NCBI GenBank assembly: GCA_018433675.1
Contig: JAHDQS010000015.1
Location: 126,170 to 158,888, forward strand
Reading direction: 5' to 3'
Length of the DNA: 32,719 bases
DNA from: Clostridia bacterium
GTDB lineage: Bacteria; Bacillota; Peptococcia; DRI-13; SM3-B62
Part shown: positions 31,138-32,719 of the stretch, piece by piece
How the letters are laid out: every line of letters starts with the position of its first letter
Position numbering within the stretch: position 1 is the first letter of the stretch
Program-made: the position numbers and the translations under genes
The notes under the pieces: generated by a model
The model's input: the letters and a program-made list of their open reading frames with translations, nothing else
Databases searched by the model: none
What the model was told of the DNA's origin: nothing

Positions 31138-32313
31138 ATGCGGGAAGTTCTAATAGTTGGGGCGGTAAGGACGCCAGTCGGTTCGTTTGGTGGGAGTTTG
31201 AAAGATATACCAGCGCAGGAATTGGGAAGCATCGTCATTAAAGAGGCCTTGGCCAGAGCGAAGGTCAAACCGGAAGCGGTCGAAGATGTGATTATGGGAT
31301 GTGTATTGCAGGCAGGCTTAGGGCAGAATGTGGCCCGGCAGGCTTCTTTGAAGGCCGGAATACCTGATAATGTACCGGCTATGACAATAAATAAAGTATG
31401 TGGTTCCGGGCTGAAAGCAGTATGCTTGGCAGCACAAGAAATTGCCCTTGGTGATGCGGATATCGTTGTGGCCGGCGGGATGGAGAATATGTCCATGGCA
31501 CCGTATGCATTACCCAAGGCTCGCTTCGGCTACAGGATGGGACAGGGTCAGATAGTTGATACCATGGTTAATGACGGACTGTGGTGTGCGACGAACAACT
31601 ATCACATGGGAATCACGGCTGAAAATATTGCGGAAAGATGGAATATCAGCCGTGAAGAGCAGGATGCTTTTGCTGCCAAAAGCCAAAATAAAGCAGAAAA
31701 AGCCATCGTAGAAAATCGGTTTGCCGAGGAGATTGTGCCTGTGCAGATACCTGTTAAAGGCGGGGTGAAAGAATTTGCTGTTGATGAGTTTCCACGGGCG
31801 GGAGTTACGGCTGAGTCTTTGGCTAAGCTAAGGCCTGCCTTTAAAAAAGACGGAACGGTCACAGCCGGAAATGCCTCGGGTATCAATGACGGAGCGGCGG
31901 CATTAGTACTTGTTTCGAGGGAAAAGGCTGAAAAAATGGGCTTGGAACCTTTGGCAGTCTTTAAGGCCGGAGCCTCTGCTGCGGTGGATCCCGCAATCAT
32001 GGGCATAGGTCCGGTGGAGGCTACAAAGAAAGCCCTGAAAAAAGCCGGCTGGCAATTAGGTGACGTGGAACTGATCGAAGCAAATGAAGCTTTTGCCGCT
32101 CAATCATTGGCCGTAGCAAAAGACTTAGGGTTTAAGATGGATATTGTCAATGTCAATGGTGGCGCAATTGCTTTAGGTCACCCGATAGGAGCAAGTGGAG
32201 CCCGTATCTTGGTAACCCTTCTTTATGAAATGCAGAAACGGGGAGCGAAGAAAGGTTTAGCCACCCTATGCATCGGAGGAGGACAGGGAACGGCCGTATT
32301 GGTTGAAAAATAG
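31138..32313 (+). CDS. atoB: Acetyl-CoA C-acetyltransferase (thiolase)
   Basis: 391 residues, standard length. Active-site Cys88 is in [11 protein letters not shown], the histidine in [18 protein letters not shown], and the second Cys in [11 protein letters not shown] near the C-terminus. It condenses two acetyl-CoA to acetoacetyl-CoA or does the reverse. AAAGGAG precedes ATG 31138 by a good spacing. Together with the CoA-transferase this covers acetoacetate activation and cleavage or butyrate-type C4 metabolism. The hydroxybutyryl-CoA and crotonase genes are not in the window. A small GGTTG/CAACC hairpin follows at 32313-32327. Confidence 0.96.
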
Positions 32314-32328
32314 GTTGCAAATCAACCC

Positions 32329-32357
32329 TTGATGAATAAATTGGTTTGTGATAGTAT
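32329..32357 (+). promoter_or_regulatory. Promoter of the glycine riboswitch transcript
   Basis: TTGATG (32329-32334), 17 bp, TAGTAT (32352-32357), ending about 25 bp before the first recognisable riboswitch sequence. Confidence 0.6.
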
Positions 32358-32380
32358 CTAGTTAAATCCATATGATATTC

Positions 32381-32551
32381 GGAAGAAGGGCAACGGGAGA
32401 GACTTGCGAAAGCAGGCGCCGAAGGAGCAAATGGCAGAAACTCTCAGGCAAAAGGACCGACCCTGACGAACTCTGGAGAGCTCGCAACAGTTGTTGCGGC
32501 ACCGATGGGGAAACCGGCAAAACCGGCAATCTCTCAGGTTACAGGACAGAG
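32381..32551 (+). promoter_or_regulatory. Tandem glycine riboswitch
   Basis: Two glycine aptamers in series. The first has GGGAGAGAC (about 32395), CAGGCGCCGAAGGAGCAA (32413-32430) and ACTCTCAGGCAAAAGGAC (32440-32457). The second has ACTCTGGAGAG (32470-32480), GCGGCACCGATGGGGAAAC (32497-32515) and ATCTCTCAGG followed by ACAGGACAGAG. Both match the gcvT-type class. The closing P1 stem of aptamer 2, CTCTG (32471-32475) with CAGAG (32547-32551), shares its 3' strand with the terminator, so glycine binding should prevent termination and turn expression on. The regulated gene is beyond the right edge; glycine cleavage or transport is usual. Confidence 0.95.
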
Positions 32552-32581
32552 GCCTACTTATTAAGCAGGCCTCTGTTTTTT
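32547..32581 (+). terminator. Riboswitch expression-platform terminator
   Basis: CAGAGGCCT (32547-32555) pairs with AGGCCTCTG (32567-32575), extended by CTT/AAG after one mismatch, followed by six T (32576-32581). The left arm overlaps the aptamer-2 closing stem, making the two structures mutually exclusive. Confidence 0.92.
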
Positions 32582-32584
32582 ATG

Positions 32585-32719
32585 GTGCGCCCGGTGAGCG
32601 CACGTTCTAAAGGGTGAAAGTCCCGAGCCCACCCGGTAGCGGGAAGGGTATAGCCGAACACCAAGGGTGTCCATCGCGAGGTGGAATCTGGAGAAAGGTG
32701 TAAGCAAATCTCTGGCCTG
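32585..32719 (+). mobile_element. Group IIC-like intron, 5' part (runs off the window)
   Basis: From GTGCG at 32585 the sequence follows domain I of bacterial class C group II introns: GTGCGCCCGG, AAAGGGTGAAAGTCCCGA, ATAGCCGAACACCAAGGGTG and GAGGTGGAATCTG, in the order and spacing I recall from the Oceanobacillus-type IIC intron. The position is diagnostic as well: class C introns insert just after intrinsic terminator hairpins, and this one begins 3 nt after the riboswitch terminator's T-run. The reverse transcriptase ORF, domains V-VI and 3' end are outside the window, so completeness and activity cannot be judged. Confidence 0.85.

Follow-up and report, generated by a model that had tools for sequence, protein, structure and literature searches.

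Class C group II introns insert after intrinsic terminators, according to PMC4424553, which cites Robart, Seo and Zimmerly 2007, and two arrangements described in PMC9481103 place a metabolite-binding aptamer next to an intron. In Clostridioides difficile, a c-di-GMP-II aptamer lies upstream of a self-splicing group I intron in a 5' leader and acts by direct allosteric choice of splice site; PMC9481103 describes this RNA as the only natural unimolecular true allosteric ribozyme known. The second arrangement is a SAM-I aptamer adjoining a group IIC intron, which the authors judged to be a selfish insertion, setting coupling aside because the terminator was uninterrupted. Tandem glycine riboswitches (Rfam RF00504), for their part, stand before glycine cleavage genes and have two aptamers, with the P1 stem of the second overlapping the terminator. 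The locus reported here combines a tandem glycine riboswitch of this kind with a group IIC intron behind its terminator, a pairing of glycine riboswitch and group II intron for which our literature search found no published case.

The window, that is the whole stretch of DNA analysed (32,719 nt), carries near its right edge, all on the + strand, an acetyl-CoA acetyltransferase (thiolase) gene (31138-32313; Pfam Thiolase_N 2.2e-112, Thiolase_C 1.9e-51), the riboswitch and the 5' end of the intron. The thiolase gene lies outside the riboswitch operon and served as synteny anchor. A candidate promoter of the riboswitch unit, picked by eye (32329-32357; TTGATG, 17 nt, TAGTAT), scored under the threshold of the promoter scanner, whose own proposal was 32348-32376; a sister species, different but of the same genus (G001), reads TAATAT in the former. 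The two glycine aptamers occupy 32384-32469 (RF00504, 59.8 bits, E 3.7e-10) and 32463-32559 (59 bits), and these were the only two RF00504 matches across the genome. Their expression platform is an intrinsic terminator (32547-32581), formed by a hairpin at 32547-32575 (dG -16.7 kcal/mol) and six T at 32576-32581, and the stretch from aptamer 2 to terminator had a folding z of -4.9 against shuffles. In the P1 stem of aptamer 2, CUCUG (32471-32475) pairs with CAGAG (32547-32551), which is also the 5' foot of the terminator, so that P1 and terminator are mutually exclusive; the ligand-free fold prefers the terminator (-49.2 kcal/mol vs -34.9 kcal/mol with P1 enforced). As judged from these modelled folds, the layout is that of a glycine-ON transcriptional switch. 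Overlaps of P1 and terminator of similar layout were present in many relatives' leaders, most of them upstream of gcvT. Unlike the RF00504 tandem riboswitches of gcv genes, however, the operon here starts with sdaAB-sdaAA and its leader is split by the intron.

The 5' exon ends in ATG (32582-32584), and the intron begins with GTGCG at 32585, 3 nt past the T-run, an insertion point between 32584 and 32585 that was fixed by gap-free alignment with an empty site in G001. Its first 135 nt (32585-32719), the start of domain I, reach the right edge of the window, which is also the end of contig C50, and include a match to RF02001 at 32670-32719, which at 37.2 bits exceeds the gathering score and is cut off by the contig end. 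A search of the window's own genome (G000) with the last 160 bases found copies at many contig ends: one, at the end of contig C38, was identical (128/128 over the intron), and a second intron family accounted for eight copies at 81% at eight more contig ends; three further matches were short and partial. Matches to RF00029 (domain V/VI) in this genome likewise lay mostly at contig ends. Because the intron is a repeated element, the assembly broke and its interior is missing; contigs end within the intron both in G000 and in G001. Separately, three lone class C 5' fragments of about 28-81 nt in the window's genome (L014 and L016 on contig C5, L015 on contig C40) run abruptly into unrelated sequence, which is unusual since the remnants of incomplete reverse transcription would be expected to come from the 3' end instead.

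The locus of the sister species supplied the empty site. There, the same thiolase gene is followed by the two aptamers, the terminator and then, without interruption, sdaAB, and joining the flanks from the window's genome rebuilds this locus without a gap (...CTGTTTTTTATG followed directly by TTTTCTT...). By this comparison the intron extends from GTGCG to ...CTCGAT, with no target duplication at the insertion. Between the two species the aptamers show no difference and the terminator shows two, both near its loop, whereas the sequence flanking them is roughly 10% different. Thus, as read from the alignment, the intron insertion is precise and separates the terminator of the riboswitch from the operon under riboswitch control. 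Both intron ends, the aptamers and the terminator are intact, and the host ORFs are open.

The matching intron 3' end opens contig C40 (L101:1-140), which begins with the reverse transcriptase (RT) C-terminus LAQAGYYSILDRYESLHLCA and a stop codon, continues with D5/D6 (RF00029, 44.1 bits, cut-off 40) and then enters the operon sdaAB-sdaAA-gcvT-gcvH-gcvPA, whose ORFs, open and 80-93% identical in amino acids to those of G001, we take from reading their sequences to encode L-serine dehydratase beta and alpha, GcvT, GcvH and GcvPA. The assembled part of this RT comprises the last 20 codons and the stop, full-length RTs being present in related introns, and the closest RT matches were in introns of Desulfosporosinus, Paenibacillus and Brevibacillus, a result of little value for placing the host. 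The 3' ends on contigs C23 and C40 share one sequence, which is unlike the second family's 3' ends, and the family of the window's intron (family A) thus has exactly two 3' ends (C23, C40) and two 5' ends (C50, C38); the pairing of 5' and 3' ends by family rests on copy number and the empty site, because no assembled copy is whole. The C50 and C40 halves are, on the strength of synteny with G001, one intron copy. Joining C50 to C23 instead was rejected, as the empty site continues into C40 sequence. Taking the interior from the other RT genes (on C14, C57, C51 and C28) was also set aside: these may not belong to the family, and the C57 3' end matches over 44 nt only. That the contig end merely joins unrelated pieces is a concern for any sequence ending in a repeated element, as C50 does, but the 5' junction lies inside C50, the 3' exon of C40 and the 5' exon of C50 rebuild the G001 locus gap-free, and the intron ends are as expected for class C, so we consider such an artefact highly improbable.

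The element is a group IIC (class C) intron: it has a 5' GTGYG, a 3' AY and no target duplication, it gave covariance-model matches to domain I (RF02001) and D5/D6 (RF00029), and it is inserted directly behind a terminator-like hairpin. The preliminary description had proposed, from the window, a two-aptamer glycine riboswitch with its terminator and, 3 nt later, a group IIC-like 5' end, and this was borne out by RF00504, the folds, RF02001 and the empty site for the arrangement, and by both covariance models, the end sequences and the hairpin target for the class. The further elements that it had named for checking were in substance all recovered, namely the covariance match, the RT C-terminus, domain V/VI, the 3' boundary and the host operon. 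Like other class C introns, this one starts with GTGCG, stands only a few nt past the stem of a terminator and in the same orientation, has the RT C-terminus followed by D5/D6, and belongs to an element with several copies per genome. It departs from the usual class C sites in having as its target terminator the expression platform of a riboswitch, which shares its transcript with an operon immediately downstream.

We therefore consider it very probable that a family A group IIC intron retrohomed into the terminator hairpin of the glycine riboswitch, any gating by glycine being a by-product. The intron, one of two near-identical family A copies, would have used the DNA hairpin of the terminator as its target, and it now sits in the same direction as its surroundings, with the terminator on one side and sdaAB-sdaAA-gcvT-gcvH-gcvPA, a set of genes for serine and glycine breakdown, on the other. 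The riboswitch would have been targeted because class C introns target terminators, and not because of glycine. The targeting itself, which the preliminary description had invoked as known, recurs in the genomes surveyed, consistently with PMC4424553. All remaining nine full intron 5' ends in the window's genome lie behind hairpins, mostly terminators, and an Rfam scan of their flanks gave no riboswitch. Among related introns from other genomes, 102 start with GTGNG and have a 5' flank that can be read; a crude test for a stem plus T-run was passed by 75/102, and many of the others have clear hairpins by eye. An Rfam scan of about 115 related-intron flanks placed two introns directly behind another regulated leader (L122 and L219), a rate that is only indicative because the independence of the sample is compromised by several genomes that contributed many copies. 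This rarity fits terminators being used whatever they regulate, and most likely ordinary class C targeting met a regulated terminator by chance.

The same figures bear on whether the arrangement is a selected device, in which co-option of the intron has brought it and the operon under joint control by glycine, as an AND gate of glycine and splicing or as a regulated retroelement. Such a device would account for the intactness of riboswitch, terminator, intron ends and operon, and for the repeated use of regulated leaders (c-di-GMP-I in L122, a T-box in L219, SAM-I in PMC9481103). We nevertheless regard it as very unlikely: regulated-leader cases are as rare (2/~115) as expected without a preference among terminators, the intron is absent from the sister species and so is recent or was lost there, the two identical copies in the genome resemble ordinary transposition, and the start signals of the operon lie outside the intron.

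These start signals also limit what splicing may contribute. For sdaAB, both the ribosome-binding site (AGGAG) and the start codon fall in the 3' exon, about 40-55 nt from its beginning and entirely beyond the intron, and the operon should thus be translatable from spliced or unspliced RNA. The preliminary description, in which the host gene would need splicing to recover a normal leader, was accordingly too strong: with both translation signals carried by the 3' exon, splicing would help to restore the normal leader and would not be required for translation. Under the retrohoming account, transcription from the riboswitch promoter would end at the terminator, ahead of the intron, when glycine is low. 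With glycine present, aptamer-2 P1 would capture CAGAG, the terminator would fail, and intron and operon would be transcribed together; the intron would then splice out, perhaps incompletely, giving back the normal leader. From the glycine-ON anatomy, entry of transcription into the intron is expected chiefly in the presence of glycine. The idea of glycine gating follows solely from the position of the intron behind an ON-type terminator, and as such is plausible. We propose only tentatively that glycine, through the riboswitch, switches on the transcription of this copy and hence also its splicing and, possibly, retromobility, with the operon expressed from spliced or unspliced RNA. Glycine-dependent transcription of the intron copy would in that case be a plausible by-product and no new kind of system.

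The intron might instead be expressed independently of the riboswitch, from its own or an internal promoter or by a trans-acting RT from other copies, in which case gating would have no practical relevance; such a view accords with the insertion history given above and departs from that account on gating only. Since class C introns are mobile although they sit mostly behind plain terminators, their expression must come from read-through or from promoters of their own; outward promoters have been described in class C-attC introns. In contrast, no sigma-70-like site was detected by a consensus scan of the intron's last 140 nt and the start of the 3' exon, and an outward promoter within the intron 3' end was discarded on this basis. 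Riboswitch-independent expression appears to us rather unlikely, if far from negligible.

A direct action of the glycine aptamer on intron folding or splicing, as in the C. difficile c-di-GMP-II/group I RNA, is suggested at first sight by the juxtaposition of aptamer and ribozyme on one strand. However, the C. difficile system described in PMC9481103 is a group I intron under direct allosteric control, whereas here a complete, uninterrupted terminator separates aptamer 2 from the intron, and any control would be transcriptional; this is the argument that PMC9481103 applied to SAM-I and group IIC. Moreover, the intron-less sister locus has almost the same aptamer and terminator. An allosteric ribozyme of this type was hence rejected as extremely improbable. 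The present locus belongs with the SAM-I case (PMC9481103), both consisting of a riboswitch, an uninterrupted terminator and then a group IIC intron, and differs from it in that the ligand is glycine and that the host operon is known here along with an exact empty site.

An intron behind a regulated terminator is thus not unique, as SAM-I is published (PMC9481103) and two further cases emerged from our survey. In Brevibacillus panacihumi W25 (L122), a c-di-GMP-I aptamer (2463-2540) is followed by a terminator and a class C intron at 2597; the downstream gene presumably encodes a secreted repeat protein, by our own reading. In genome G156 (L219, contig 5), a T-box leader (RF00230, 1079-1391) is followed by a terminator and, within about 30 nt, a group IIC intron. 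Together with the glycine locus, these cases suggest that introns behind regulated terminators form a small class that recurs, and the exact empty site shows that class C introns use regulated terminators as well as those at gene ends. An intron thereby becomes part of a leader under ligand control, which allows splicing, read-through and retroelement expression to be tested jointly; if gating were true, a retroelement copy would be under metabolite control.

Some minor observations concern other insertion sites. The T-box leader of L219 (1079-1391) contains a complete tRNA-Ala (GGC) gene (L219:1255-1330), and a brief literature search found no description of a tRNA-Ala within a T-box leader before a group IIC intron. 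Head-to-tail class C tandems were found at G113:C1:2164883-2167038 and 2880946-2881779, at L195:644 and 2529, and at L231:528-616, with periods of about 662 nt, the size of an ORF-less intron, or about 1885 nt. At L231 the incoming copy lies directly behind the D5/D6 end of the resident intron, so that an intron's own terminal hairpin seems usable as a target. Finally, at the locus L222:1-1417 (G226, contig 3) a class C intron begins about 40 nt past the last detected repeat of a CRISPR array, and the hairpin before it may be CRISPR spacer sequence.
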